DNA of 38,147 bases. Source: Candidatus Methylomirabilota bacterium. Its GTDB lineage: Bacteria > Methylomirabilota > Methylomirabilia > Rokubacteriales > DASRDR01. Position numbers and translations under genes: made by a program. Below the pieces are notes generated by a model. That model did not search any database, was not told the DNA's origin, and was given only the letters and a program-made list of their open reading frames with translations. Numbering within the stretch: position 1 is the stretch's first letter; the number at the start of each line of letters is the position of its first letter. The DNA is taken from NCBI GenBank assembly GCA_036005065.1, contig DASYQW010000027.1, positions 1 through 38,147 on the forward strand, given 5' to 3'. Shown here piece by piece: positions 2,825 through 16,530 of this stretch.

Positions 2825-3343
2825 TCAGGCCCGCCCGGGCGGGAGGTGGGCCGTGCGCCGGGCCTGGAGGGCGGGATCGGCGTAGGTCATGAGATCGGGC
2901 TGGGCGCGACCGAGCATGACCTGGATGTAGGCCGGCTCGAGGCCCACGTTCTCGAACCCGTGGATGACGCCGGCCGGGGCGGAGACGCAGTCCCACCGCC
3001 CCAGCACCGTCTCGGCCCGGTGCCCGTCGGCGTCGTCGAGGAACACCCGGACCTTCCCCTCCAGGACGAAGAAGGCTTCTTCGACCTCGTGGCTGTGCGG
3101 GGCATTGCCCTGGCCAGGCGGCACGAACATCACGCTGAGCGTGAAGTGTTCAGCCGTGATCGCCCCGGGGTCGCTCTTCCCGGAGGCGCCGGTGCCGATG
3201 TAGCGGTGCTGGGCGCGGCGGTAGCCCTCGACCCGGGCGTCGGCGAACGCGTCCCAGTCGGCCGCGCGGTCCACGAAGCGCGCCACCCGGGCGCGGAGCA
3301 GCGCTGCGAGCGTGGGGTTCGGAACGTCGGCTGCCGTCGTCAT
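2825..3343 (-). CDS. small cupin-domain protein
   Basis: Single-domain cupin of 172 residues. The start is the ATG at 3343, preceded by AGGAGGG; the frame is open further upstream, but that part has no family similarity. The conserved cupin motif 1 is GNAPHSHEVEEAFFVLEGKVRV, which supplies His-His-Glu metal ligands. Motif 2 is APAGVIHGFENVG, which supplies the last His. Such proteins are often metal-dependent dioxygenases, isomerases or ligand sensors; the substrate here is unknown. It is the last gene of the long minus-strand block, 19 bases after the TctA-TctB stop. That position suggests a role in metabolism of the imported compound. Confidence 0.85.
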   Translation of the reverse strand: MTTAADVPNPTLAALLRARVARFVDRAADWDAFADARVEGYRRAQHRYIGTGASGKSDPGAITAEHFTLSVMFVPPGQGNAPHSHEVEEAFFVLEGKVRVFLDDADGHRAETVLGRWDCVSAPAGVIHGFENVGLEPAYIQVMLGRAQPDLMTYADPALQARRTAHLPPGRA

Positions 3344-3362
3344 CGCCGCCCTCCTGTCGCCC

Positions 3363-5387
3363 TCAGCCGCCCCCGCCCAGCCAGGCGAAGAGGAGACCCG
3401 GCGGGAAGGGGATGGCCAGGACCCGCTCGAACAGGCCATACACGAACGCGTAGCTGGCGAGGCTCAGCGCGATGCTGATCGGCCAGCGCTCGCGGGCGCC
3501 GACCTTGAGATAGAGGAAGGCCGTCACCAGGGTGGCGCTGGAGAAGCCGACCAGCCAGATCGCCGCGAACATCCCGAGGATCCAGGCGCAGATCTCGGCG
3601 GTGCGCCGGGCCGCCACCCCCGGAGGCAGGTCCGGGCCCGTCTCGATCGCGTCCAGGGCCGCGCCGCTCCGCCGCCCGGCGGCGTCGCGGGCGAACTGGA
3701 CGATCGCCAGGCCGAGCGACGGGATGACGATGGCCCACGGGAAGAGCCCGGCCCGCGGGCCGAAGTCCCGGCTCTGCCAGAGCGCCCACCCGAACAGGAG
3801 CACCAGGAAGAGGCTGAACACCGTCGCCCCGTCGAGCCGGAGGCCCCGGCGATCGCCGGCCGGAGTCACCGCCGGCGCCGCCATCGTGGCGCTCGCGCGC
3901 GTCCGCCGCCGGCGCTCGTTCCAGACCGGGACCACGAGGCCGACCAGGATGAGCGTGGTCAGGACGAGCACGCCTGGGCGGGCCAGCCAGGCCAGGCCGT
4001 AGTTGTCGGTGGACAGGAAGAGCTTGTTCTCGGCCAGCGGCCCCAGCACGAGCCCCAGCAGCAACGGCGGCCGCGGCCAGCCGAGCTGGGCCATCACCCA
4101 GCCGACCGCCCCGAAGACCAGCACGACCCCGAGATCCTCGAAGACGTTCTTCTCCGCGAAGGCGCCGACGTAGATCAGGGTCAGCAGGATCGGGGTGAGG
4201 AGCGTCCCCCGGATCTGGGTGATCCGGGCGAGCTGGCCCATGAACGAGAGGCACACCGCGACCGTGATGATGTTGGAGACGACGATGGTCCACACCATGG
4301 CGAACGTCACCGACAGGTGTCCCTTCGGCTCCGGCGTGAGCATCGCGGGCCCGGGGACCAGGCCCTGGATCAGGAAGGCGCCCATCAGGATCGCGGTGCC
4401 GACGCTGGCCGGCACGCCGAAGGCGACGGTCGTGACGAGGCTCCCGCCGAGGGTGGAGTTGTTGGCGGCGCCGGGCCCCAGAACGCCCTCGACCGCGCCC
4501 CGGCCGAACCGCTCCCGGTCGGGAGAGCTCTGGACGGCGTGGGCGTACGCCAGCCACTGGGTGGTGGCGGCGCCCATCCCGGGGATGATGGCAATGAAGG
4601 TGCCGACCGCGCTGCACCGGATGACGAGCCACCAGTGGACGAACGTGTCGCGGACGCCTTGCCAGACGCCGCCCAGCTTCCCGACGTCGAGCTTGGCGAT
4701 GCTCGATCCCTGAATCGCCAGCTCGATCACCTCGGGGAGGGCGTAGAAGCCGATGGTGACCGGGACCAGCCCGATCCCGTCCCACAGGAAGAGCTGGCCG
4801 AACGTGTAGCGCTGGACGCTCGCCAGCGGGTCGAGGCCGATCGTCGCCAGCCACAGCCCGAGGCCGCCGGCCAGGAGCCCCTTCAACAGCGCCTCGCCGC
4901 TCAGCGCGGCCACGAAGGTGATGCCGAGCAGGGCCAGCATGAAGAACTCGGGGGAGCCGAAGGTGAGGACCAGCGGTCGCACGATCGGGATGGCCAGCCC
5001 GAGGACCAGGGCGCCGAAGACGGCGCCGAAGAGGGAGCTCATCATCGCGGCTCCCAGGGCCCGGCCGGCTTCGCCGTTCTTGGCCATGGCGTGGCCGTCG
5101 ACGATGGTGGCGGCCGTGGTCGGCTCACCGGGGATGCCGAAGAGGATCGAGGTGATGTCGCCGGTCGTGTTGGTGACCGCGAACATCCCGAGCAGGAACG
5201 CGAAGGCCTCCACCGGCGTCATCCTGAAGACGAAGGGCAGCATGAGGGCCAGCGTGGTCGGCCCTCCCAGGCCCGGCAGGATCCCGACGGCGAAGCCGAT
5301 GACGATACCGACCAGCATCAGGCCGAAGGTGGGCCAGGCGAAGACCTGGATCAGCCCGGCGAGGGAGGCCTGGGCGAACTCGACTAT
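3363..5387 (-). CDS. TctA-TctB fusion, tripartite tricarboxylate transporter permease
   Basis: Inner-membrane permease of the tripartite tricarboxylate transporter (TTT) family, working with a periplasmic TctC protein. Residues ~1-500 are TctA: many hydrophobic helices and the signature GFAVGILPGLGGPTTLALML near residue 30, with its second half-repeat at IAIIPGMGAATTQWLAYAHA. After a basic linker (NERRRRTRASA) the last ~165 residues form four hydrophobic segments typical of TctB, which is normally a separate protein. No ATG, GTG, TTG or CTG start exists near the expected N-terminus. The reading frame emerges from the end of the upstream tctC gene, and the best candidate is an ATA at 5387 overlapping that gene's TAG (ATAG). 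The start is therefore uncertain; the family assignment is firm. Confidence 0.88.
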   Translation of the reverse strand: MVEFAQASLAGLIQVFAWPTFGLMLVGIVIGFAVGILPGLGGPTTLALMLPFVFRMTPVEAFAFLLGMFAVTNTTGDITSILFGIPGEPTTAATIVDGHAMAKNGEAGRALGAAMMSSLFGAVFGALVLGLAIPIVRPLVLTFGSPEFFMLALLGITFVAALSGEALLKGLLAGGLGLWLATIGLDPLASVQRYTFGQLFLWDGIGLVPVTIGFYALPEVIELAIQGSSIAKLDVGKLGGVWQGVRDTFVHWWLVIRCSAVGTFIAIIPGMGAATTQWLAYAHAVQSSPDRERFGRGAVEGVLGPGAANNSTLGGSLVTTVAFGVPASVGTAILMGAFLIQGLVPGPAMLTPEPKGHLSVTFAMVWTIVVSNIITVAVCLSFMGQLARITQIRGTLLTPILLTLIYVGAFAEKNVFEDLGVVLVFGAVGWVMAQLGWPRPPLLLGLVLGPLAENKLFLSTDNYGLAWLARPGVLVLTTLILVGLVVPVWNERRRRTRASATMAAPAVTPAGDRRGLRLDGATVFSLFLVLLFGWALWQSRDFGPRAGLFPWAIVIPSLGLAIVQFARDAAGRRSGAALDAIETGPDLPPGVAARRTAEICAWILGMFAAIWLVGFSSATLVTAFLYLKVGARERWPISIALSLASYAFVYGLFERVLAIPFPPGLLFAWLGGGG

Positions 5388-6385
5388 CGAAGGATCTCCC
5401 GGAGCTTCGCCACGATCGCCGGGTCGAGCCGGAACAGCTCCTCGACGAGACCCGCGAGCTCCTCGCCGGGGATCGGGTCGACGTCGAGCTTGGCCTGCCG
5501 GGCGTCGGCCAGGAACTCCGGGTCGCGGACGGTCTCGAGGAAGGCCGCCCGCAGCGCCTGCACGCGATCCGGCGGCGTCCCGGGCGCGACCGCGTAGAGC
5601 CGGCTGATGGCGGAGGGCACGATGACGGCCGCCCGCACGAGCTGGCGCGCGTCCTCGGTCCGGGCCAGGTCGAGCGCCAGCGGGACCCGCGGCAACTCGG
5701 GGAGGGGCTTGGCGGTGGCCTGAAGCACGATGGCGATCTCGCCGGCATCCAGGGCCTTGCGCCAGGTCACCTTGACCGACTCCCACTGCCAGCAGCCGCC
5801 GGCGACCTCGCCGGACTCGGCGGCCAGCCGGATCTCGGCCGTCCCCTTGTAGCCCCGCACGAGCTGGATCGGCAGTCCGAGAGCCGCCTGGAGCACCCGG
5901 GCGGTATCGTGGGTCGTGTCGCCCGGCCCCACTCCACCGAGCTTCACCGGCGTCCGGGCCGCCATCCACTGCTCGACGGTCCCGATGCCGCTCGCTCGGG
6001 TCAGCGCGCACACCACGTTGTCCCGCACGGGAACGCCGAGCCAGACGAACTTTCGGGCGTCGAACTCGATGCCCTCCCGACCGAGCAGCTGGCCGACGAG
6101 CTGGTTGCCGTGGAAGTTGACGATGGTGAGTCCGTCGGGCCGGGCGGCTTTGTAGACGGTGTTGGCCGCGATCAGGCTGGCCGCCCCCGGCATGTTCTCG
6201 ACGATGACCGCCGGCTTACCGGCGAGGTGCTTGCCCAGGTGGCGGGCGAGCGCGCGCGAGTAGGTGTCGAAGCCCCCGCCCGGCGTGAAGCCGACGACGA
6301 TGCGGATCGTCCTGCCCTCGAAGGCGCGGGGCTGCGATTCCGCCGGGAGGACCGGGAGCGCCGCCAAGACCGCGACGGCGACCAC
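5384..6385 (-). CDS. TctC-type solute-binding protein 1
   Basis: Periplasmic binding protein of the TTT/Bug family. The product is 333 residues when read from the GTG at 6385. A short hydrophobic N-terminus (VAVAVLAALPVLPAESQ) serves as signal peptide. It is followed by the family hallmarks IRIVVGFTPGGGFDTYSRAL, VIVENMPGAASLIAANTVY, and KLGGVGPGDTTHD in the ligand-binding lobe. Its stop overlaps the start region of the TctA-TctB gene. The frame is open upstream to 6550, but that extension is made of intergenic repeat R2. The GTG lies at the end of the repeat and no good ribosome-binding site precedes it. The signal peptide lacks the usual basic n-region, so the 5' end may have been altered by the repeat. 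Confidence 0.9.
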   Translation of the reverse strand: MVAVAVLAALPVLPAESQPRAFEGRTIRIVVGFTPGGGFDTYSRALARHLGKHLAGKPAVIVENMPGAASLIAANTVYKAARPDGLTIVNFHGNQLVGQLLGREGIEFDARKFVWLGVPVRDNVVCALTRASGIGTVEQWMAARTPVKLGGVGPGDTTHDTARVLQAALGLPIQLVRGYKGTAEIRLAAESGEVAGGCWQWESVKVTWRKALDAGEIAIVLQATAKPLPELPRVPLALDLARTEDARQLVRAAVIVPSAISRLYAVAPGTPPDRVQALRAAFLETVRDPEFLADARQAKLDVDPIPGEELAGLVEELFRLDPAIVAKLREILR

Positions 6386-6542
6386 CGAGCGCGTGGTGCA
6401 TCGAGGAGCGCTCCGAGCAGCGGCTTCGCCGCCGCAACTTTGGGTTCGCGCACCTCGGACGGAGGGGCCCCAGCTCCGCGACGTCTTGCGGCGCGCCGTC
6501 TGGGGGGGTATCGGGGGGGTCTTCCGAGACTTCCCCGAAGAA
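6386..6542 (-). repeat. intergenic mosaic repeat R2
   Basis: Read on the minus strand, this starts right after the TAG of the second tctC gene with TTCTTCGGGGAAGTCTCGG, then AGACCCCCCCGA. It continues through a variable middle to the GCGGCGGCGAAGCCGCTGC hairpin and ends CTCCTCGATGCACCACGCGC. The last part matches the copy at 26147-26275 almost base for base up to the point where tctC-1 begins. It separates two otherwise contiguous tctC genes by 157 bases inside the operon. Confidence 0.75.
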
Positions 6543-7568
6543 CTAATCATAGAGGATGCCCTTCAGCCGGGCGATCAGGGCGGGCTCGAGCTTGAACAGC
6601 CGCTCGATGACGCGCTCCATCTCTTCCCCGGTCACGGGCTCGATCTCGAGCTTGGCCTGCTCCGCCTCGGCGAGGAACACCGGGTCGCGAAGGGTGTCCA
6701 GGAACGCCTTGCGCACGGTCTGGACCCGGGCCTTCGGCGTCCCCGGCGGCAGGGTGAGCGACCGGACGATCGCGCTGTCGGCGTGGATCGCCACCTCCAG
6801 GAGGCGGCGCGCCTCGTCCGTCTTGGCCCGGTCGATCGCCAGCGGGACGCCGGCTAGCTCGGCGTGGCTCCGCGGAGCGAGTTGGAGGAGGACCACCACC
6901 TCGCCGGCCTCCAGCGCCTTCCGCCAGGTCGCGCGGATGGAGCCCCAGTTGAAGCAGGTGCCGGCCAGCTCCCCCGCCTCCGCGGCGAGGCGGATGTCGG
7001 CGGTGCCCTTGTAGCCGCTCACGAGCTGGATGGGCAGCCCCAGCGCGGCCTTGATCGCCCGCGTGGCGTTGTCCGGGGTGCTGGAGCCGGGGGCGACGCC
7101 GCCCATCTTGACCGGCGCCGGCGCCGCGATCCACCTCTCCAGGCTCGTGATCCCGCTGGCCTTGGTCATCGCGCAGACCACGTGGTCAGGCGCGGGGGCG
7201 CCGATGAACTCGAACTTCCGCGCGTCGAACTCGATGCCTTTCTGCCCCAGCACCTGGCCCAGAAAGAGGCCACCGATGAAGTGCCCGATCGTCAGGCCGT
7301 CCGGCTTGGCCACCTTGTAGAGGTGGTTGGCGGCGATCAGGCTGCCGGCGCCCGGCATGTTCTCGACGATGATCGTCGGGTTGCCCGGGAGGTGCCGGCC
7401 CAGGTGTCGCCCCAGCGTGCGGGCGAACGTGTCGAAGCCGCCCCCCGCCGAGAATCCCACCACGATGCGGACGGTCTTGCCGCGGTAGAAGTCGTCCTGG
7501 GCAGGGGCCGAGCACGGGGTGACCGCGAGGGTGATTCCCAGGAGCCAGAGCCAGCGCCTCCGGTTCAT
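6543..7568 (-). CDS. TctC-type solute-binding protein 2
   Basis: Periplasmic solute-binding protein of the TTT/Bug family, 341 residues, usual length. The signal peptide MNRRRWLWLLGITLAVTPCS precedes a cleavage region at SAPAQ. Family motifs are VRIVVGFSAGGGFDTFARTL, IIVENMPGAGSLIAANHLY and KMGGVAPGSSTPDNATRA. The start is well supported: AAAGGAGGAAGCGC precedes the ATG, and that ATG overlaps the upstream gene's TGA (ATGA at 7565-7568), indicating translational coupling to the molybdenum hydroxylase. It is a clear paralogue of the next gene (5384-6385), sharing the same block order and the ENMPGA.SLIAAN motif. The two may bind related substrates for one permease. Confidence 0.95.
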   Translation of the reverse strand: MNRRRWLWLLGITLAVTPCSAPAQDDFYRGKTVRIVVGFSAGGGFDTFARTLGRHLGRHLPGNPTIIVENMPGAGSLIAANHLYKVAKPDGLTIGHFIGGLFLGQVLGQKGIEFDARKFEFIGAPAPDHVVCAMTKASGITSLERWIAAPAPVKMGGVAPGSSTPDNATRAIKAALGLPIQLVSGYKGTADIRLAAEAGELAGTCFNWGSIRATWRKALEAGEVVVLLQLAPRSHAELAGVPLAIDRAKTDEARRLLEVAIHADSAIVRSLTLPPGTPKARVQTVRKAFLDTLRDPVFLAEAEQAKLEIEPVTGEEMERVIERLFKLEPALIARLKGILYD

Positions 7569-9841
7569 GCGCTTCCTCCTTTGGCGGCCACGATCGCCCG
7601 CCGGACCCGCTCGGGCGTGAGCGGGAGGTCGGTGATCCGGACGCCCACCGCCCGCGCGACCGCGTTGGCGATGGCCGGGGCGGTCGGCAGCAACCCGCTC
7701 TCGCCGATCCCCTTGGCCCCGTACGGCCCCGGCCCGTCGCCGTTCTCCACCAGGATGCTCTCGTACTCATCCGGCACGTCGCCCATCCCCGGGACCCGGT
7801 AGTCGATCAGCGACGGGTTCACGAGCTGGCCGCCGTCGTAGACCATCTGCTCGAAGAAGGTGTGGCCGATCCCCATCATCGCGCCCCCCTCCTCCTGGGC
7901 GTGGCACTCGCGGGGGTTGATGGCGCGGCCGATGTCGGCCACCGAGACGTACCGGAGCACCCGCACCAGGCCCGTCTCCGCGTCGACCTCGACCTCGGCG
8001 GCCGCCATCCCGACCTCCCAGAACGGGGCCTCGCCGCCGAGCGGGGCGTGCCCGCGCTCGCCCCGGTAGGTCCCGCGGCCGATCAGCTCGCCGCCGCCGC
8101 CGAAGTGGGCGGCCAGGGCCTGCGAATAGGTGAGCTCCCCGCCTGGCCCGACGATCCGCCCGTCGCGGAGCGTCACCGCCGCCCGCTCGCCGCCGAGCCG
8201 GCGGGCGGCGATGGCGCCGAGCTGATCGCGCACGTCCCTCGCCGCCGCCTGGACCGCGAGGCCCATCAGCGTCGTCGACCGGCTCGCGCTGGTCGCCTGG
8301 TCGTAGGGCCCCATCCCCGCCTCGGGCCGGGCCACGGTGACGCGCGCCAGAGGCAGGGCCAGCTCCTCGGCCACGATCTGGGAGAGCACGGTGCGGACGC
8401 CCTGGCCGCACTCCACGGTCCCGGTGAGGAGCGTCGCGCTCCCGTCGGCGTGGAGCCGCACCATCGCGCTCGAGACGGACGGGGCCAGCGGCGCCTTGAT
8501 GGTGCAGGCGAGCCCCTTCCCGCGGCCGGGCGCCCGGGGCGGCTCGGACCAGCCGACGGCGGCGGCCGCCTGCCGGAGGCCGCCGGCGAGATCGCAGTCG
8601 ATCGGCAGGTCCCCCTCGATGAACGTCTCGCCCCGCCGGAGGAGATTCCGGAGGCGCAGCTCGAGCGGGTCCATCCCGAGCCGCTCGGCGATCACGTCCA
8701 TCTGCGACTCGTAGGCCCAGGCGAGCTGAGGAACGCCGTAGCCCCGGAAGGCCACGCTCACCACCGTGTTGGTGTACACGCCGTACGCGTCGATCCGGAC
8801 GTGGGGGATGCGGTAGGGGCCGGCCGCGGTATAGGCAGACTTCTGGACCACCCGCGGGCCCACGTCGGCGTAGGCGCCGAGCTGGTAGTGGATCTCGGCC
8901 TCGCGCGCGAGGAGGGTGCCGTCGCGGCGGACGCCGGTCCGGAGCCGGTATCGAACGGCAGCCCGCCGCACCGAGAGGAAGGCCTCCTCGGCGGTGAGGG
9001 CCAGGCGTACCGTCCGCCCGACGGCCGCCGCCAGCGCGATCACCAGCGGCTCGATCTTGGTGTAGGACTTGTTGCCGTACGCCGCGCCCAGGTACGGCAC
9101 GATCACGGTGAGCCGCGCCAGAGGCACGCCGAACATCTCGGCCAGCTCCTTCCGGACCGGGAAGGGGTGCTGGGTCGACGCCCACACCGTGATGCCCTGG
9201 CGGTCCACGCGCGCGATCGCGCAATGGGGCTCGAGCGATACATGATGGGCCATCGGGAAGGTGTAGGTCTGCTCCACGACCAGCTCGGCCTCGGCGAGGG
9301 CTCCGCTCGGGTCCCCCCGCGCGTAGCGGTAGTGGTGGCAGACGTTGGTGCCGGGGATGGGCCGGAGCGCCCCGAGATCCCGGAAGTGCCCGGCCGGGCG
9401 CGGCCGCTCGTGGAGGAGGGGCGCGCCCGGGGCCAGCGCCGCCTCCAGCGTGGCGACGACGGGCAGCTCGGCGTAGTCGACGCCGATCCGCGCGAGCGCC
9501 GCCTCGGCGTGGGCCGGGGTGTCGGCGATGACGGCCGCGACCGGCTCCCCGGCGTACCGGATCACGCCGTCGGCGAGGAGCGGCTGGTCCTTGAACGCGG
9601 GGCCGTAGTAGAGATCGCGGACGGGCAGGTCGGAGGCGGTCAGGACCGCGACGACACCGGGCGCCCCCGCGGCCCGCGTCGTGTCGACGCCCAGGATCCG
9701 CGCGTGAGGGACGGGACTCCGCCAGAGCCGGGCGTGGAGCATCCCGGGGACGACCACGTCGGTGATGAAGCGGGCGCGCCCCGTCGCCTTCTCGGGGGTG
9801 TCGACGCGGGGCGCGGGCGTCCCGACGATGCCGGCGGTCAC
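7565..9841 (-). CDS. molybdenum hydroxylase large subunit 1 (CoxL/XdhB-like)
   Basis: Molybdopterin-binding catalytic subunit of the xanthine dehydrogenase/CO dehydrogenase superfamily, 758 residues. The GTG start at 9841 forms a GTGA overlap with the stop of the preceding large-subunit gene. The N-terminal a/b-hammerhead domain begins at about residue 10 (PRVDTPEKATGRARF), followed by the molybdopterin-binding domains. The glycine-rich cofactor loop reads GAAYGNK at 252-258 instead of GGAFGGK in its neighbour. The segment AFRGYGVPQ and the GIGES motif near the C-terminus (the superfamily's catalytic Glu) are intact. It is a close paralogue of the following entry and has no FAD or Fe-S subunit of its own, so the two must share them or act as a pair. 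Confidence 0.93.
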   Translation of the reverse strand: MTAGIVGTPAPRVDTPEKATGRARFITDVVVPGMLHARLWRSPVPHARILGVDTTRAAGAPGVVAVLTASDLPVRDLYYGPAFKDQPLLADGVIRYAGEPVAAVIADTPAHAEAALARIGVDYAELPVVATLEAALAPGAPLLHERPRPAGHFRDLGALRPIPGTNVCHHYRYARGDPSGALAEAELVVEQTYTFPMAHHVSLEPHCAIARVDRQGITVWASTQHPFPVRKELAEMFGVPLARLTVIVPYLGAAYGNKSYTKIEPLVIALAAAVGRTVRLALTAEEAFLSVRRAAVRYRLRTGVRRDGTLLAREAEIHYQLGAYADVGPRVVQKSAYTAAGPYRIPHVRIDAYGVYTNTVVSVAFRGYGVPQLAWAYESQMDVIAERLGMDPLELRLRNLLRRGETFIEGDLPIDCDLAGGLRQAAAAVGWSEPPRAPGRGKGLACTIKAPLAPSVSSAMVRLHADGSATLLTGTVECGQGVRTVLSQIVAEELALPLARVTVARPEAGMGPYDQATSASRSTTLMGLAVQAAARDVRDQLGAIAARRLGGERAAVTLRDGRIVGPGGELTYSQALAAHFGGGGELIGRGTYRGERGHAPLGGEAPFWEVGMAAAEVEVDAETGLVRVLRYVSVADIGRAINPRECHAQEEGGAMMGIGHTFFEQMVYDGGQLVNPSLIDYRVPGMGDVPDEYESILVENGDGPGPYGAKGIGESGLLPTAPAIANAVARAVGVRITDLPLTPERVRRAIVAAKGGSA

Positions 9842-12135
9842 GACGCCGACGCCTTGGGTCTGGCGTCCTGCAGCGCGCGCCAGACCCGCTCCGGGGTCAT
9901 CGGCACCTCGCGGAGTCGCACGCCCGTCGCGCGAGCGATCGCGTTGCCGATGGCCGGGGCCGCGCAGAACGTCCCGCTCTCCCCGACGCCCTTCGAGCCG
10001 AAGGGACCGGGGCCGTCGGCGTTCTCGATCAGGAGGGTGTCGAAGCGGTCGGGCAGGTCGAGGAAGGTCGGCAGCCGGTAGTCGATCAGGCCCGGGTTGA
10101 GGAGCTGGCCGGCCTCGCTCGCGCGCGCCTCGAACAGCGCGGGGCCGAGCCCTTGCAGCGCGGCGCCCTCGTCCTGGCCCGCGCACTCGCGCGGATTGAT
10201 CGCGGTTCCCACGTCGGCCGCCGACACGTACTTGTGGATCCGGACCGCGCCGGTGTCCGGGTCGACCTCGACCTCGGCGGCGCCCATGCCCGTCTCCCAG
10301 AACACGGTGGCACCGCCCAGGCTCCCCGACCACGCGCCGGGGACGAACGTGCCGACCCCGGTCACCTCGCCGCCCACCAGGCCGAAGTGGCCTCGCACCA
10401 CCTCGGCCACCGAGAGGGCACGGTCGCCGTGGACGACCCGCCCGCCACGAAGGTCGAGGGCCGCCGGGTCGGTTCCGAGGAGGTCGGCGGCCAGTCGGAG
10501 GAGCTGCTCGCGCGCGTCGCGCGCGGCCGCCTGGACGGCCAGCCCCATCACCGTCGTCGAGCGGCTCGCGCTCGTGCCGTGGTCGTAGGGGGTGAGCGCG
10601 GTGTCGGGCGCGACGGCGACGACGGTCTCGAAGGGGACCCCGAGCGTCTCGGCCGCGATCTGGGCCAGCACCGTCCGCGCGCCCTGTCCGACCTCGACCG
10701 TCCCGGCGAAGAGGCTCACGCTCCCGTCGGCATGGACGCGCACGACCGCCATCGACACCGTGTGGGTGCCGCCGCCGTCCTTCATCGCGCAGGCCAGCCC
10801 CTGGCCGCGCCCGGGGGCGTCCGGGACGCCCCAACCCACGGCGCGCGCCACCGCTCCCAGCCCTTCGGCCAGGTCGCCGTCCATCGGCGTGTCGCCCGCG
10901 ACGTACTCCTCACCCCGCTTGAGGAGGTTCCGCAGCCGCAGGGCGAGCGGGTCGAGGCCGAGCCGCTCGGCGATTCCGTCGAGCTGCGACTCCGAGGCCC
11001 AGGTGACCTGGGGGACGCCGTAGCCGCGATAGGCGCCGGCGGGAACGTTGTGGGTGTAGACGCACCGGGCGTCGATGCGGAGGTGGGGAATGCGATACGG
11101 CCCGGGTGCCCGGTAGCCGGCCTTGGTCGCCACCCGCGGGCCGATGTCGGCGTAGGCGCCGGTGTCGAGGACGACGTCGCACTCGCGGGCCAGGAGCGTC
11201 CCGTCGCGTCGGATCGCGGTCTTGAGCCGCACGGTCACCGCGTGGCGCGTGATGGTCCGGGCGCTCTCCTCGAGGGAGAGCGCGAGCCGGACGGGCCGGC
11301 GCACCCGGGCGGCCAGCGCGGCGGCGATCGGCTCGATCTTGGTGTAGCACTTCCCGCCGAAGGCGCCCCCGATCAGCGGGACGATCACCTGGACGCGGGC
11401 CAGGGGGACGTCGAAGATCTCGGCCAGCTCGCGGCGGACCGGGAAGGGATGCTGGGTCCCGGTCCAGACCGTGAAGCTCCCGTCCGCCTCGACCCGAGCG
11501 ATCACACAGTGGGGCTCGAGCGCGTGATGGGAGAGGGCGGGGTAGTGGTAGGCGTCGTCCACCACGAGGTCGGCTTCGGCGAAGGCGGCCGCCAGGTCAC
11601 CACGCTCGGCGTGCCAGTGGTGGCAGACGTTGGTCCCGGCGATGGGACGCAGCCCGGAGAGGTCGCGGAAGTGGCCGGCGGGGTCGAGCGCCCCATGGAT
11701 CAGCGGCGCGTCCGGCGCCAGGGCCGCCTCCGCGGTCGTCACCGCCTGAAGCTCCTCGAAGCGCACGTCGAGGAGCGGCAGCGCCGCCTCGGCGTGGGCC
11801 GGGGTATCGGCGACGACCGCGACGACGGGCTCGCCCGCGTAGCGGACGACCCCGTCGGCGAGGATCGGCTGGTCCTTGTAGGCCGGGCCGTAACAGAGGC
11901 GCCGCACCGGCAGATCGGCGGCCGTGCAGACCGCCAGGACGCCCGGCGCCGCCGCCGCGCGCTCCACGCCCACGCCGTGGAGGCGCGCGTGGGGCACCGG
12001 GCTCCGCCAGAGGCGCGCGTGGACCATCTCCGGCAGCGCCAGGTCGGTGACGTAGCGCGCCGCGCCGGTCACCTTCTCCCGGGCGTCCAGGCGCGGGACC
12101 GAGCGGCCGACGACCGCCAGCGTCTCAGGCGCCAC
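9838..12135 (-). CDS. molybdenum hydroxylase large subunit 2 (CoxL/XdhB-like)
   Basis: 765-residue molybdopterin-binding subunit of the xanthine dehydrogenase/CO dehydrogenase family. The a/b-hammerhead domain starts at residue ~14 (PRLDAREKVTGAARYVTD). The cofactor loop GGAFGGK is at 256-262, AYRGYGVPQ at 368-376, and GVGES places the predicted catalytic Glu near residue 719. It lacks the CO dehydrogenase active-site loop AYRCSFR, so it is not a form I CO dehydrogenase; it more likely hydroxylates an organic or heterocyclic substrate. It starts at a GTG overlapping the end of the [2Fe-2S] gene by 11 bases, in the order FAD, Fe-S, Mo subunit. Substrate unknown. Confidence 0.94.
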   Translation of the reverse strand: MAPETLAVVGRSVPRLDAREKVTGAARYVTDLALPEMVHARLWRSPVPHARLHGVGVERAAAAPGVLAVCTAADLPVRRLCYGPAYKDQPILADGVVRYAGEPVVAVVADTPAHAEAALPLLDVRFEELQAVTTAEAALAPDAPLIHGALDPAGHFRDLSGLRPIAGTNVCHHWHAERGDLAAAFAEADLVVDDAYHYPALSHHALEPHCVIARVEADGSFTVWTGTQHPFPVRRELAEIFDVPLARVQVIVPLIGGAFGGKCYTKIEPIAAALAARVRRPVRLALSLEESARTITRHAVTVRLKTAIRRDGTLLARECDVVLDTGAYADIGPRVATKAGYRAPGPYRIPHLRIDARCVYTHNVPAGAYRGYGVPQVTWASESQLDGIAERLGLDPLALRLRNLLKRGEEYVAGDTPMDGDLAEGLGAVARAVGWGVPDAPGRGQGLACAMKDGGGTHTVSMAVVRVHADGSVSLFAGTVEVGQGARTVLAQIAAETLGVPFETVVAVAPDTALTPYDHGTSASRSTTVMGLAVQAAARDAREQLLRLAADLLGTDPAALDLRGGRVVHGDRALSVAEVVRGHFGLVGGEVTGVGTFVPGAWSGSLGGATVFWETGMGAAEVEVDPDTGAVRIHKYVSAADVGTAINPRECAGQDEGAALQGLGPALFEARASEAGQLLNPGLIDYRLPTFLDLPDRFDTLLIENADGPGPFGSKGVGESGTFCAAPAIGNAIARATGVRLREVPMTPERVWRALQDARPKASAS

Positions 12136-12622
12136 GCCCGGTCTCGGCTCCGGGTGCCAGTCGCCGGGAGGCGGCCAGGATCGCCTCCAGGATCGACTTG
12201 TAGCCGGTGCAGCGGCAGATGTTGCCGCGCATGTAGTGCTTGACCTCGTCCGGCGTCGGCGTGGGGTTCTCCTGGAGCAGGGCGACGGTCGCCATGATCA
12301 TGCCGGGTGTGCAGAAGCCGCACTGGAGCGCGCCGTGCTCGACGAACGCCTCCTGCACCGGGTGGAGGTCGTCGCCCTCGGCCAGGCCTTCGATGGTGCG
12401 GAGGCGCCGGCCCCGCGCCTCGAAGGCCAGGAGCGTGCAGGCGCTCACGGGCTCCTCGTCGAGGAGCACGGTGCAGGCGCCGCACACCTGGACGTCGCAC
12501 GACTTCTTCGTGCCGAGGAGACCCAGGCGATCGCGGAGGCACTCGAGCAGCGTTTCCCAGGGCGGCACGGTCAGCTCGTGCCGTTCGCCGTTCACCGTCA
12601 CCGCGACCGCGACGTCGCTCAC
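12125..12622 (-). CDS. molybdenum hydroxylase [2Fe-2S] small subunit (CoxS-like)
   Basis: Electron-transfer subunit of 165 residues with the two expected clusters. The plant-ferredoxin-type cluster uses Cys42, Cys47, Cys50 and Cys62 (SCDVQVCGACTVLL). The C-terminal helical-bundle cluster uses Cys101, Cys104, Cys136 and Cys138 (QCGFCTPG and NICRCTGY). All eight cysteines are present, so it should be functional. The GTG start at 12622 overlaps the TGA of the FAD-subunit gene as GTGA. It carries electrons between the Mo centre of the large subunits and the FAD of the medium subunit. Confidence 0.97.
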   Translation of the reverse strand: MSDVAVAVTVNGERHELTVPPWETLLECLRDRLGLLGTKKSCDVQVCGACTVLLDEEPVSACTLLAFEARGRRLRTIEGLAEGDDLHPVQEAFVEHGALQCGFCTPGMIMATVALLQENPTPTPDEVKHYMRGNICRCTGYKSILEAILAASRRLAPGAETGRGA

Positions 12623-13497
12623 GATGGCTCCCGGACCCCGAGACTGGCCAGGGCCTGGCGGAAGGCTCGCCGCAGCAGGACGGCGACCAGGTGCTCCTTG
12701 TACTCCGCCGAGCCGTGGAGGTCCGTCACGGCGTCGGCCGCCCGGGCCGCCAGGCGCCCGGCCTCCTCGAGGGCGGCCGGGCTCTCGGCGATCGCCTTCT
12801 CTCGCAGCACGGCCTCGGCCTCCCGCATCCGGCGAGGGACGGGGCCGACCGAGCCCACGGCGACGCGGGCGTCGGCGAAGTGCCCGTCGGCGACGGTGAC
12901 GGCGACGGCCACCCCCACCGAGGGGCGCTCGAGGAAGCCGAACTTGAGGTACGCCGCCGCCGAGCGAGGCGGCAGCGGCGGCACCGCGATCTCCGTCAAC
13001 AGCTCGTCCCCCTCCAGGCACGTCTCGAAGGGCCCGACGAAGAGCGCCTCGAGCGGGAGCGTGCGGGCGCGGCCGGCCCGCTCGAGCCTGACCGTCGCGT
13101 CGAAGACCTGGAGCAACGCTCCGGGGTCGGCGTGGGGCTCGGCGAAGCAGAGGTTCCCGCCGAGCGTGCCCACCGTACGCACCCGCACGTTGGCCACGTC
13201 CGCCTCCATCCGGGCCAGGGCCGTGAAGTGCTCGCGGACCACCGGGTCCCGCTCGACCGCACGGTGGGTCGCGGCCGCGCCGATCCGGAGCGTCCCGTCG
13301 CCGTCCCGGCGGAGGCCGCCCAGGCCGGGGATGGTCTTCACGTTCACCAGGTAGTCGTAGTGGACGAGCCCCTCCTTCATGGCCAGGAGCAGCTCGGTGC
13401 CGCCCGCGTAGAGCCGGGCCGCCTCCCCGTGGCGCGCGAGCAGCGCCGAGGCCTCGCCGACCGAGGCGGGCTCCGCCAGCTCGAACGGCCTCAGCAT
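12619..13497 (-). CDS. molybdenum hydroxylase FAD-binding medium subunit (CoxM-like)
   Basis: 292-residue FAD subunit of the xanthine dehydrogenase/CO dehydrogenase family. FAD-binding motifs are YAGGTELLLAMK (residues ~30-41) and TVGTLGGNLCFAEPHADPG (~108-126), close to the canonical AGGHS and TIGGN motifs. The C-terminal domain is the CO dehydrogenase flavoprotein C-domain (KFGFLERPSVGVAVAVTVAD). The ATG at 13497 overlaps the end of the CoxG-like gene by 7 bases. The open frame continues upstream, but that region belongs to the preceding gene. It passes electrons from the Fe-S clusters to an external acceptor. Confidence 0.96.
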   Translation of the reverse strand: MLRPFELAEPASVGEASALLARHGEAARLYAGGTELLLAMKEGLVHYDYLVNVKTIPGLGGLRRDGDGTLRIGAAATHRAVERDPVVREHFTALARMEADVANVRVRTVGTLGGNLCFAEPHADPGALLQVFDATVRLERAGRARTLPLEALFVGPFETCLEGDELLTEIAVPPLPPRSAAAYLKFGFLERPSVGVAVAVTVADGHFADARVAVGSVGPVPRRMREAEAVLREKAIAESPAALEEAGRLAARAADAVTDLHGSAEYKEHLVAVLLRRAFRQALASLGVREPS

Positions 13498-13940
13498 CGC
13501 TCGAGCTGGGCCCGCACCGCGTCGGCGAAGCGGTCGACGATCTCGCCGCCCTTGCGGACGATGACGCCGTGGCCGAGCGTCCCGAGCTTCCCGAACACGA
13601 CGATGTCGGCCGCCAGCCGGAGCCCGGTCCCGCCCTCGGCCGGCGCCAGCGTCACGTCGAGGTCCACCTTGACGAGCCCATCCACGCTGGCGTCGCGACC
13701 GCCGGCACGGGCGCGGAGGTGCTCGGGGGACTGCGCCTCGAGCACCTCGATCTCGAGGGGGACGTGCAGCTTGAACGGCCCGACTCGCTCGGCCACGACG
13801 GCGGCGTAGCGCTTGCCGTCCTCGAGGGCCCGCACCTCCCGGGCTCCCGGGATGCACGTCGCCAGCCGCGGCACGTCCCAGAGAAAGGCCCACACCGCCT
13901 CCCGCGGCGCCGCGATCCGGATCTCGCGCTCGATTCTCAC
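13491..13940 (-). CDS. CoxG-like SRPBCC-family protein
   Basis: 149-residue START/SRPBCC-fold protein of the CO dehydrogenase subunit G family. The hallmark REAVWAFLWDVPRLATCIPG is at about residues 13-32, and LRLAADIVVFGKLGTLG at about 107-123. In CO dehydrogenase gene clusters CoxG is thought to help anchor or recruit the enzyme at the membrane. The typical C-terminal hydrophobic anchor of longer CoxG proteins is absent here. The GTG start at 13940 overlaps the EutA-like stop (GTGA), and its own stop overlaps the FAD-subunit start, so translation is coupled on both sides. Confidence 0.92.
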   Translation of the reverse strand: MRIEREIRIAAPREAVWAFLWDVPRLATCIPGAREVRALEDGKRYAAVVAERVGPFKLHVPLEIEVLEAQSPEHLRARAGGRDASVDGLVKVDLDVTLAPAEGGTGLRLAADIVVFGKLGTLGHGVIVRKGGEIVDRFADAVRAQLERC

Positions 13941-15466
13941 CGCGCCGGGTCCCCTGCCAGTATCGGCGCCGGACGGAAGACGAGCGACTTGATCACGACC
14001 GGCACGATGCCCGAGACGGGCAGGGGGTCGCCCACGTCGATGTAGTCGAAGCCGGTGAGATCCAGCTCGTCCACGGTGACGACGTCGGGGCCGGCCCCCA
14101 GCTCCTCGACCAGGAGCCGCCCCACCAGGCGCGCGATGTCGCGGTCGAAGGCGAGGACGATCGGAGCCGTCCGGTGGCCGAGTGCCGTCAGGACGCCGTC
14201 GGCGAGGGCCCGCAGCTCCTCGTAGCTGGCGCCGAACTCCCACCGGATGGCGAGCGCGATCGGACCCCCGGAAAGCTCCGCCTCGTGGCCGTCGATCGCC
14301 GCCCGCACCGCGCGGGCGACGCGGGGCGCGGCCAGCGGCTCGTCGAGGCGCACGGGGAAGACGGGCAGGTTGCGCAGGGTCAGGCGGCCCGCTCCCGGGT
14401 GGAAGATCGTGCTGCCGCTGACCTGCACGGTGTACTGCGCCGCCCCGATCACGGTGGCGCGGATCCCCTCCTCGGGCTCGATGAGGCGGGCGCCGAGCGG
14501 GTGCCCGTCCAGCCGGCGCCGGATCGCCGCGCCGAGCGCCAGGCCGAGGTCGCCGAAGCTCGCGCGCTCGCGGCCGTAGACGTACTCGGCGACGCCCCCG
14601 GAGAACATCAGCGCGACCATCCCATCGGGGCCCGCCAGCGGCTCGGTGTGCATGAGGCGCCGGCTGAGCGGCGACAAGGGCCGGCGCTCGACCACCTCGA
14701 AGAGACACTCGACCATCCGGTCCACCATCGCCCGCGCGAGCGCGTCGTCGAAGCGGTCGCCGGGGGCGAGCCCGCGTCCCACCGCCTCGGCCAGCCAGGC
14801 GCCGGCCTCCTCCAGCCGGGTGAGGCGGCCGGCCTCGAAGGCAACCAGTCGGCCGCCGACGTTGATGACGGCGGTGTCCACGACCTCGCCGTCGCGGCAG
14901 ACGGCCAGCTTGGTCGTCCCGCCGCCGAGGTCGACGTTGAGCACCGGCCCGGCGTGACGGGAGCGGGCCACGGCCCCGGAGCCGTGGGCGGCCATGATGG
15001 CCTCGAGCCGGGGGCCGGCGGCCGCGCAGACGAATCGCCCGCCGTCCCGGGCGAAGAGCCCGAGGACCGTCTCGGCGTTCGCCTTCTTCGCCGCCTCGCC
15101 GGTGACGATCACGGCTCCGGTGTCGACGGCCTCTCGAGCGAAGCCCGCGCGCTGATAGGTCTCGTCGATGAAGGCGCCCAGGCGCTCGGCGTCGATGGTG
15201 GCGGAGTCCCGGTAGGGCGTCAGCAGGATCGGTGACTGGTGGACGATCTCGCGCGCGACGACCCGGTACCGGCTCGACAGGGACAGGCTCATCCGCCGGA
15301 GGACCAGCCGGGAGAACGTGAGGTGCGAGGTCGAGGAGCCGATGTCGATGCCGACGCTCTTGAGCTCGATCCGCTCCACGGCCCAGGCGGGGTCCGCCTC
15401 GTCCGGCAGGCCGTGGGGATCGCCCTCGTGGTCCTCGTGCTCGTGCGGGTAGGGGAAGTCGTGCAT
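13937..15466 (-). CDS. eutA: EutA-family reactivase-type ATPase
   Basis: 509-residue protein matching ethanolamine ammonia-lyase reactivating factor EutA along its whole length. Visible motifs are VGIDIGSSTSH (38-48, phosphate 1 of the actin/Hsp70 fold), AVIVTGEAAKKANA, VLNVDLGGGTTKLAV (175-189, phosphate 2), LMFSGGVAEYVYG, EEGIRATVIGAAQYTVQVSG and the C-terminal DYIDVGDPLPVSGIVPVVIKS. Known EutA proteins use ATP to exchange damaged B12 on ethanolamine ammonia-lyase. No eutB or eutC is in this window; the gene sits between a bicupin and molybdenum hydroxylase genes, coupled at both ends (TGATG and GTGA). An acidic, His-rich N-terminus (residues 8-19) is an addition to the usual protein. The target enzyme is unknown. 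Confidence 0.9.
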   Translation of the reverse strand: MHDFPYPHEHEDHEGDPHGLPDEADPAWAVERIELKSVGIDIGSSTSHLTFSRLVLRRMSLSLSSRYRVVAREIVHQSPILLTPYRDSATIDAERLGAFIDETYQRAGFAREAVDTGAVIVTGEAAKKANAETVLGLFARDGGRFVCAAAGPRLEAIMAAHGSGAVARSRHAGPVLNVDLGGGTTKLAVCRDGEVVDTAVINVGGRLVAFEAGRLTRLEEAGAWLAEAVGRGLAPGDRFDDALARAMVDRMVECLFEVVERRPLSPLSRRLMHTEPLAGPDGMVALMFSGGVAEYVYGRERASFGDLGLALGAAIRRRLDGHPLGARLIEPEEGIRATVIGAAQYTVQVSGSTIFHPGAGRLTLRNLPVFPVRLDEPLAAPRVARAVRAAIDGHEAELSGGPIALAIRWEFGASYEELRALADGVLTALGHRTAPIVLAFDRDIARLVGRLLVEELGAGPDVVTVDELDLTGFDYIDVGDPLPVSGIVPVVIKSLVFRPAPILAGDPAR

Positions 15467-16530
15467 CAGCGCCGGGTCACGGCTGGCATGCGGCTTCGGG
15501 CGCCCGCCTTGGCCAGCTCGGCCTCGAACAGCTCCCGGACGGCGGGGTCCTCGTCCTCGTACTCGATCTGGTTCCCGCCGCTCGCCCGGTTCTCGGCCAG
15601 GCGGTCGTGCTTGTCGTCGAGCTTGTGCTTGACACTGCCCCAGCGGATGGCCAGGTAGCGCGCCGGGGTCGGACCGGCGTTGAAGTGCTGGTGCCACCAG
15701 TAGTCGGGCGGCACGAAGACGCTCCCGTCGTGCCAGTCCACTTTGGTCCAGGGCTGGCCGTCGGGCCAGAGCAGGGAGTAGCCCTGGCCGGACAGGATGA
15801 TGACGTTGGCGCCCGGCCCGTGGCGGTGCGCCTTCTTGTAGGTCCCGACCGGGAACTCGGAGATGTGGGCGATGAGGGTGTTGTTGGCCAGCTCGAACAT
15901 GATGTTGCTGCCGCCCGCGCCCCGCTCCTTCCAGTCGATGAGCTGGAAGGTGTTGACGTCGGGGATGAAGTTCGCCTCCCAGATCCGGCTGGCCAGAAAC
16001 GTGCCCTTGCCGCTGAAGGCATCCGGCTCGCCGGTGAACCGGTCGCGGAAGACGAACGGGTTGTCGAAGATGAAGTCGTGGTTGTGGAAGAGGTTCATCA
16101 CCAGCGGCGCGCTGGTCACCGCGTAGTAGCGGGCCGGCTGGGTCCCGGAGGCGTTGAAGTGCTGGTGGAAGGCATTGAGCGGGATGGCGAACAGGCTCCC
16201 GGCCTGCCACTCGAAGGTGAGCCGGGGCCCACCCTCGAGCCAGACCGAGGTGGCGCCGCGGCCGGTGAGGACGTAGATGACCTCCTCGTAGAGGTGGCGC
16301 TGGGGGGCGAGCTTGCCGCCGGGCGGGATCTCGCAGACGTAGGCGGCGTTGGTTCCCCCCGTCCCTTCCATGTCGATGAACGCCCCCTGGCCGCCCTTGC
16401 GAGCCCAGGGCCGGAGCTCCACGCCGCGGAGGTCTTCCACGTAGAAGCCGCGGACGACCGGGAGGCCTTCCGCCTCCTGCCATTGCTGGTAGGTGGTACG
16501 CATCGTGCCGGGGCTGTTGGAGATCGACAT
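15466..16530 (-). CDS. bicupin-domain protein
   Basis: 354-residue protein with two cupin barrels, first gene of the minus-strand block. Barrel 1 has candidate metal ligands His79, Glu82/83 and His122/His124 (PQRHLYEEVIYVLTGRG, then AFHQHFNASG). Barrel 2 has His235, His237, His280 and His282 (KKAHRHGPGANVIILSGQG, then YWWHQHFNAG). The architecture recalls gentisate 1,2-dioxygenase-type bicupins, but I cannot assign a substrate. The start is firm: GGAGGAG lies 6 bases before the ATG. Its TGA overlaps the EutA-like ATG by one base. A 79-base region separates it from the divergent gene at 16610 and probably holds the operon promoter. Confidence 0.9.
   Translation of the reverse strand: MSISNSPGTMRTTYQQWQEAEGLPVVRGFYVEDLRGVELRPWARKGGQGAFIDMEGTGGTNAAYVCEIPPGGKLAPQRHLYEEVIYVLTGRGATSVWLEGGPRLTFEWQAGSLFAIPLNAFHQHFNASGTQPARYYAVTSAPLVMNLFHNHDFIFDNPFVFRDRFTGEPDAFSGKGTFLASRIWEANFIPDVNTFQLIDWKERGAGGSNIMFELANNTLIAHISEFPVGTYKKAHRHGPGANVIILSGQGYSLLWPDGQPWTKVDWHDGSVFVPPDYWWHQHFNAGPTPARYLAIRWGSVKHKLDDKHDRLAENRASGGNQIEYEDEDPAVRELFEAELAKAGARSRMPAVTRR

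Follow-up and report, generated by a model that had tools for sequence, protein, structure and literature searches.

EutA-like ATPases from genomes without EutB pair with gentisate dioxygenase-like bicupins and may assist them

Organization of the operon

The window analysed here is a 38,147-nucleotide stretch of a Candidatus Methylomirabilota genome (contig DASYQW010000027.1). Eleven tightly packed genes lie on its minus strand between positions 2825 and 16530, as defined by Pfam matches and by gene calls made with a simple script. The original prediction had described an eleven-gene minus-strand operon at this position, and each gene that it named was placed by Pfam. The genes, together with two features within them, are listed below.

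15466..16530, minus strand: bicupin, 354 aa; Cupin_2 in two stretches
15691..15828, minus strand: putative metal site in the C-terminal cupin of the bicupin, H235-x-H237...H280 (and H282)
13937..15466, minus strand: EutA-like ATPase, 509 aa; PF06277, 1.8e-115; actin/Hsp70-like (ASKHA) core
15410..15466, minus strand: His/Asp-rich N-terminal tail of the EutA-like ATPase, MHDFPYPHEHEDHEGDPHG, predicted to be disordered
13491..13940, minus strand: CoxG-like protein; PF06240, 6e-12
12619..13497, minus strand: FAD subunit of a Mo hydroxylase; FAD_binding_5/CO_deh_flav_C (PF00941, PF03450)
12125..12622, minus strand: [2Fe-2S] subunit of the Mo hydroxylase; Fer2/Fer2_2 (PF01799, PF00111)
9838..12135, minus strand: Mo hydroxylase large subunit 2; MoCoBD_1+2, GVGESG motif
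7565..9841, minus strand: Mo hydroxylase large subunit 1; MoCoBD_1+2, GIGESG motif
6543..7568, minus strand: TctC substrate-binding protein 2; PF03401, 5e-8
5384..6385 (start uncertain), minus strand: TctC substrate-binding protein 1; PF03401, 1.5e-10
3363..5318 (start uncertain), minus strand: TctA-TctB fusion transporter; PF01970 (8.5e-119) then PF07331 (1.6e-9) in one frame
2825..3343, minus strand: single-cupin protein; PF07883, 8e-14

The bicupin and EutA-like genes meet in the sequence TGATG. Overlaps of 4 bp join EutA to CoxG, the FAD to the [2Fe-2S] subunit, Mo large subunit 2 to Mo large subunit 1, and the latter to TctC 2, while CoxG and the FAD subunit overlap by 7 bp and the [2Fe-2S] subunit and Mo large subunit 2 by 11 bp. 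The Mo hydroxylase belongs to the xanthine oxidase family, with large, FAD and [2Fe-2S] subunits and the GxGESG motif in the forms KGVGESG and KGIGESG. Its two large subunits are 60% identical to each other, and large subunit 2 scores under every NCBIfam equivalog cut-off.

A clade distinct from canonical EutA

The EutA-like protein resembles EutA in its full-length match to PF06277 and its ASKHA motifs, but differs in its clade, in the residues GSSTSH and K186, in its His-rich tail, in a genome without EutB and in its bicupin partner. The match to PF06277 runs end to end (profile positions 2-474 of 475, 1.8e-115), and scores of 321, 258, 214 and 212 bits fall below the respective NCBIfam EutA cut-offs of 598, 769, 799 and 952. 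Short PF06277 matches (~45 aa, 22-33 bits) turn up in almost every genome of the order and were disregarded, as they span no more than a single short part of the profile. In a maximum-likelihood tree of 55 sequences, a branch with 100/100 support splits 45 EutA-like proteins from 10 canonical EutA proteins (E. coli, C. difficile, Listeria, two haloarchaea and five Chloroflexota eut operons). The tree that the original prediction had proposed thus places this EutA relative in a clade of its own.

EutB is encoded in all five genomes that carry a canonical Chloroflexota EutA, but the same test found it in none of the 22 EutA-like genomes searched, among them that of the window (G000, 97.9% complete). 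The missing EutB rules out an ethanolamine system, and the earlier view that none is present here holds across these genomes.

The nucleotide-site motifs of ASKHA proteins are kept in the EutA-like proteins (D41-x-G43, D179-x-GGG and S289-GG). The site reads GSSTSH in place of the canonical GTTTTQ; H48 is present in 45/45 EutA-like proteins where 9/10 canonical proteins have Gln, and K186 is likewise invariant (45/45) where all 10 canonical proteins have Asn. A fold search with the predicted model of the EutA-like protein, which is of moderate confidence, returned Ppx/GppA and the activators of 2-hydroxyacyl-CoA dehydratases (1hux, 4eht, 8jgp). The EutA-like protein is thus predicted to share the fold of these proteins, but it has no detectable sequence relation to them past the nucleotide site and they serve other partners. 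In-frame stops in some EutA-like matches had suggested selenocysteine, a candidate that was rejected because the stops sit where the profile overruns the C-terminus; the annotated Phyllobacterium EutA-like coding sequence ends at that TGA.

Histidine-rich tails

The His-rich N-terminus to which the original prediction had drawn attention is present, recurs in the EutA-like clade and is missing from canonical EutA proteins, which have 6-18 in-frame residues ahead of the core with at most one His among them. In the predicted model of the window protein, residues 1-29 have a pLDDT below 50. Most EutA-like proteins have a His/Asp-rich tail. Extensions of the EutA-like proteins average 9.8% His and 22% Asp plus Glu, compared with 2.0% His in the core. 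At least four His per 15 residues occur in 23 of 44 EutA-like proteins, with proteins whose start codons are provisional included in this and the following counts. The tract is N-terminal in 20 proteins and C-terminal in 4 (for example, HDHEHDHDHHHDHDHDHDHDHHHDHDHPHTH in L095), three of these four having both, and a further protein (L093) has an internal tract; its position therefore shifts while its composition stays. Among 787 genes in the collected loci, EutA-like genes account for 13 of the 20 most His-dense (P 2e-12). A subclade that includes the Sinorhizobium and Phyllobacterium proteins is mostly without the tail yet still pairs with the bicupin; the tail is thus no strict requirement.

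For the G3E GTPases UreG and COG0523, histidine stretches have been put forward as a sign of a metallochaperone role (PMC2770081). Like the EutA-like proteins, HypB, UreG and COG0523/CobW are NTPases that have a stretch of His at the N- or the C-terminus and are tied genomically to a metalloenzyme. They differ in being G3E GTPases, whereas the EutA-like protein is an ASKHA ATPase whose proposed client is a cupin enzyme. The His-rich tail of the EutA-like protein probably binds metal.

The bicupin

The best sequence match of the bicupin in the PDB is gentisate 1,2-dioxygenase (3bu7, 2e-6). The closest NCBIfam model is 5-aminosalicylate 1,2-dioxygenase (MabB), which the bicupin matches with 42.8 bits, under the cut-off of 650. 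In the C-terminal cupin, H235, H280 and H282 are present in 39/39 relatives of the bicupin and H237 in 38/39, and the usual cupin Glu is substituted. The N-terminal site is eroded, with H122 kept in 24/39 relatives. This pattern of residues is consistent with a site of three His in the C-terminal domain; a structure model built from two sequences was poor (pLDDT 46). Gentisate and 5-aminosalicylate 1,2-dioxygenases likewise have two cupin domains, an H-x-H...H site without the usual Glu, and neighbours from aromatic catabolism. The bicupin differs from them in scoring far under the MabB cut-off, in having its intact site in the C-terminal domain and in co-occurring with an EutA-like ATPase. 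SAR202 MAGs have been reported to encode numerous ring-cleaving dioxygenases, some of them annotated as gentisate dioxygenases (PMC6123686).

A link to nickel was considered because NiCoT and NikR genes lie beside the bicupin-EutA pair in Phyllobacterium. The arrangement is not repeated in Sinorhizobium, where the next gene past the pair reads as an FAD-dependent enzyme, and the link was dropped.

Pairing of the EutA-like gene with the bicupin

Co-occurrence of the two genes was surveyed in the window's phylum (95 genomes), in Chloroflexota (301 genomes) and in plasmids (where the hits are from Rhizobiales); most of the genomes are fragmentary MAGs. In the window's phylum the EutA-like gene is present in 5/95 genomes and the bicupin in the identical five, one copy each. 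The genes lie 7-10 kb apart in two of these genomes and on different contigs in G007, so the co-occurrence goes beyond adjacency. Among the Chloroflexota genomes, 20 carry both genes, 2 the bicupin only, 1 the EutA-like gene only and 278 neither (Fisher P 6e-28, uncorrected for kinship), based on 21 genomes with EutA-like genes (26 matches less 5 canonical) and 22 with bicupins. The exceptions are an EutA-like fragment at a contig edge without a bicupin (G368), a bicupin at a contig start with no EutA-like match (G313) and a much weaker bicupin of 289 bits (G102). A full-length bicupin is found in only four of 72,556 plasmid records (three from Sinorhizobium and one from Phyllobacterium), and these four also hold the closest plasmid matches to the EutA-like clade; the two plasmids looked at further have two EutA-like genes each.

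A bicupin on the same strand lies within 350 bp of the EutA-like gene in 24/45 loci, against a chance expectation of about 0.5, and none of the seven canonical EutA loci scanned has an adjacent bicupin. Further adjacent pairs occur in G132, G187 and G267, and in L081, L085, L098, L104 and L126 bicupins stand in tandem or on both sides of the EutA-like gene. A scan of genome contigs with one protein query gave two loci. The EutA-like gene has its true partner in the bicupin and not in the Mo hydroxylase.

What the partnership does is a matter of interpretation, and we put at about even the chances that the EutA-like protein serves the gentisate dioxygenase-like bicupin as a dedicated, ATP-dependent helper, either a reactivase or a metallochaperone. 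Alternatively, the two proteins could be subunits of one ATP-consuming enzyme in which ATP activates the substrate, as with the ATPase subunits of hydantoinase and acetone carboxylase. The tight pairing, the frequent adjacency and the predicted ASKHA fold of the EutA-like protein would all suit such an enzyme. Against it, copy numbers diverge: some Chloroflexota genomes carry 14-42 bicupins and 1-10 EutA-like matches (42 to 1 in G281, 37 to 4 in G134), a spread more in line with a helper that is shared than with a fixed subunit. A two-subunit enzyme also leaves the His tails unexplained, and EutA is, to our knowledge, no member of the HyuA family. We consider this alternative credible but unlikely.

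It is also conceivable, with a rather low probability, that the EutA-like gene and the bicupin merely travel together on a mobile catabolic island and that their products do not interact. The pair is patchy within each phylum, and the catabolic genes around it differ between loci (Rieske, UbiD, CoA-transferase, luciferase-like monooxygenase), which speaks for such an island. However, while other genes of the island change, the two remain a pair in three phyla, and they share a genome even when separated by 7-10 kb or located on different contigs.

The molybdenum hydroxylase and other neighbours

Genes for LigXa-type Rieske oxygenases, CoA-transferases, luciferase-like monooxygenases, class II aldolases, and TTT or ABC uptake systems recur beside the EutA-like gene, as do UbiD decarboxylase genes, which in several cases adjoin the bicupin. 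The theme that these neighbours share appears to be catabolism of aromatic or organic acids. Some EutA-like genes adjoin Rieske oxygenases or ABC transporters and not a bicupin.

The original prediction had offered, as one role for the EutA relative, service to a further enzyme of the pathway, either B12-dependent or radical. Family resemblance to EutA speaks for such a client, but EutB is absent, the constant partner is a cupin, and no B12 or radical enzyme was found among the annotated recurrent neighbours, several recurrent clusters being without a name. We regard this proposal as improbable.

The other suggestion was that the ATPase had been recruited as a maturase or repair factor for the Mo hydroxylase or the bicupin. 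Co-occurrence makes the bicupin half of this suggestion the best-supported option, while distribution speaks against the other half. Large subunits of the xanthine oxidase family are present in 58/59 genomes of the order, with up to 33 per genome at a strict cut-off, and the EutA-like gene in 5. Of 42 EutA-like loci, 9 contain Mo large subunits, where 3.0 would be expected (P 0.002); some Chloroflexota loci are among these, and the recurrence amounts to a modest enrichment of catabolic neighbours. Within the window's phylum, Mo genes adjoin the EutA-like gene in the window genome only; its relatives have UbiD, CoA-transferase, GntR or other genes there. Despite the shared operon in the window and this weak enrichment, a role of the EutA-like protein in maturing or repairing the Mo hydroxylase is a very remote prospect, and was discarded.

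Proposed role of the EutA-like protein

For the EutA-like protein as helper of the bicupin, the loss of the EutA client, the His-rich tail and the co-occurrence with the bicupin together point to a probable role in ATP-driven metal loading or repair. The retained nucleotide-site motifs were counted in favour of an ATP-dependent helper, and the tailless subclade, the EutA-like genes beside Rieske or ABC genes, and G313 were counted against it.

TctABC would import an aromatic or organic-acid substrate, which the Mo hydroxylase would then hydroxylate. The bicupin would act on that substrate, most likely as a metal-dependent enzyme of the gentisate 1,2-dioxygenase type. EutA swaps out damaged cobalamin. 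By analogy with EutA and the reactivases of diol dehydratases, binding and hydrolysis of ATP by the EutA-like protein may open the bicupin, such that an inactivated metal centre could leave and a new one enter. The flexible His/Asp-rich tail might carry the ion that replaces the lost metal (Fe, Ni, Co, Mn or Zn). The clade, the pairing, the loss of EutB, the tails and the conserved His residues of the C-terminal cupin are observed, whereas the contact between the two proteins, the transfer of metal, the dioxygenase reaction and its substrate are inferred.

Implications

No published description of an EutA-like/bicupin system was found in the open-access literature, where searches for EutA with cupin, dioxygenase or histidine-rich likewise gave nothing relevant, and text searches of two SAR202 publications found no mention of cupins or ethanolamine genes.

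Tentatively, the EutA-like proteins could represent one more class of metalloenzyme helper driven by NTP, in which an actin/Hsp70-type ATPase with a His-rich, metal-holding tail loads or repairs the metal of a large cupin family of ring-cleaving enzymes; SAR202-type and other bacteria would rely on it for the continued activity of up to 42 of these enzymes. If the helper role is correct, a whole clade of proteins now annotated as 'ethanolamine ammonia-lyase reactivating factor' is misnamed. As far as we know, cupin oxygenases are thought to take up their metal unaided. It would follow from the proposed role that a dedicated ATPase can be required by such enzymes, and this would matter for their expression in other hosts. 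The EutA-like protein also provides a testable partner for a bicupin family of which some Chloroflexota genomes have 14-42 copies, among them a MAG of SAR202, a group thought to be oxidisers of recalcitrant organic matter (PMC6946804).

Gene neighbours of the EutA-like ATPases

The two molybdenum hydroxylase large subunits of the operon (window:7565-12135) are tandem duplicates that are 60% identical, and the GxGESG motif is present in both. Outside this pair, at window:19540-24006, there is a second molybdenum hydroxylase large subunit; after it, on the same strand, come a luciferase-like monooxygenase and then an amidohydrolase.

Directly upstream of a His-tailed EutA-like gene at locus L110 (genome G161) is a methyltransferase gene (L110:5890-6759) whose product has an extremely His-rich N-terminus (HQHGHHHDATQSQGHAHGHGHGHGHEQG). 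The class II aldolase-cluster gene at locus L092 of genome G109 (L092:1433-2206), which encodes a protein with a His-rich C-terminus (HGHSHSHRHGDHEHTH), is flanked by an EutA-like gene on one side and a bicupin on the other. On a Phyllobacterium zundukense plasmid (L045:17461-19063), genes for a Ni/Co transporter and NikR immediately follow bicupin-EutA; these two genes were not seen alongside the Sinorhizobium bicupin-EutA copy.

Bicupin expansion and association with UbiD

Bicupin is present in 14-42 copies per genome in the Chloroflexota genomes G095, G096, G109, G134, G152 and G281, of which G096 is a SAR202 MAG. In the SAR202 papers covered by a text search, no mention of this family was found. 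A single 757-aa open frame in G109 (C49:44617-46716) appears to be a fusion of two bicupins.

A UbiD-family decarboxylase gene directly adjoins bicupin at G001:C86:11102-13748, at G005:C75:19778-22313 and at loci L125, L128 and L129. CoA-transferase III genes lie close to these pairs, which span two phyla. It is possible that bicupin and UbiD form a unit for decarboxylation plus ring-cleavage.
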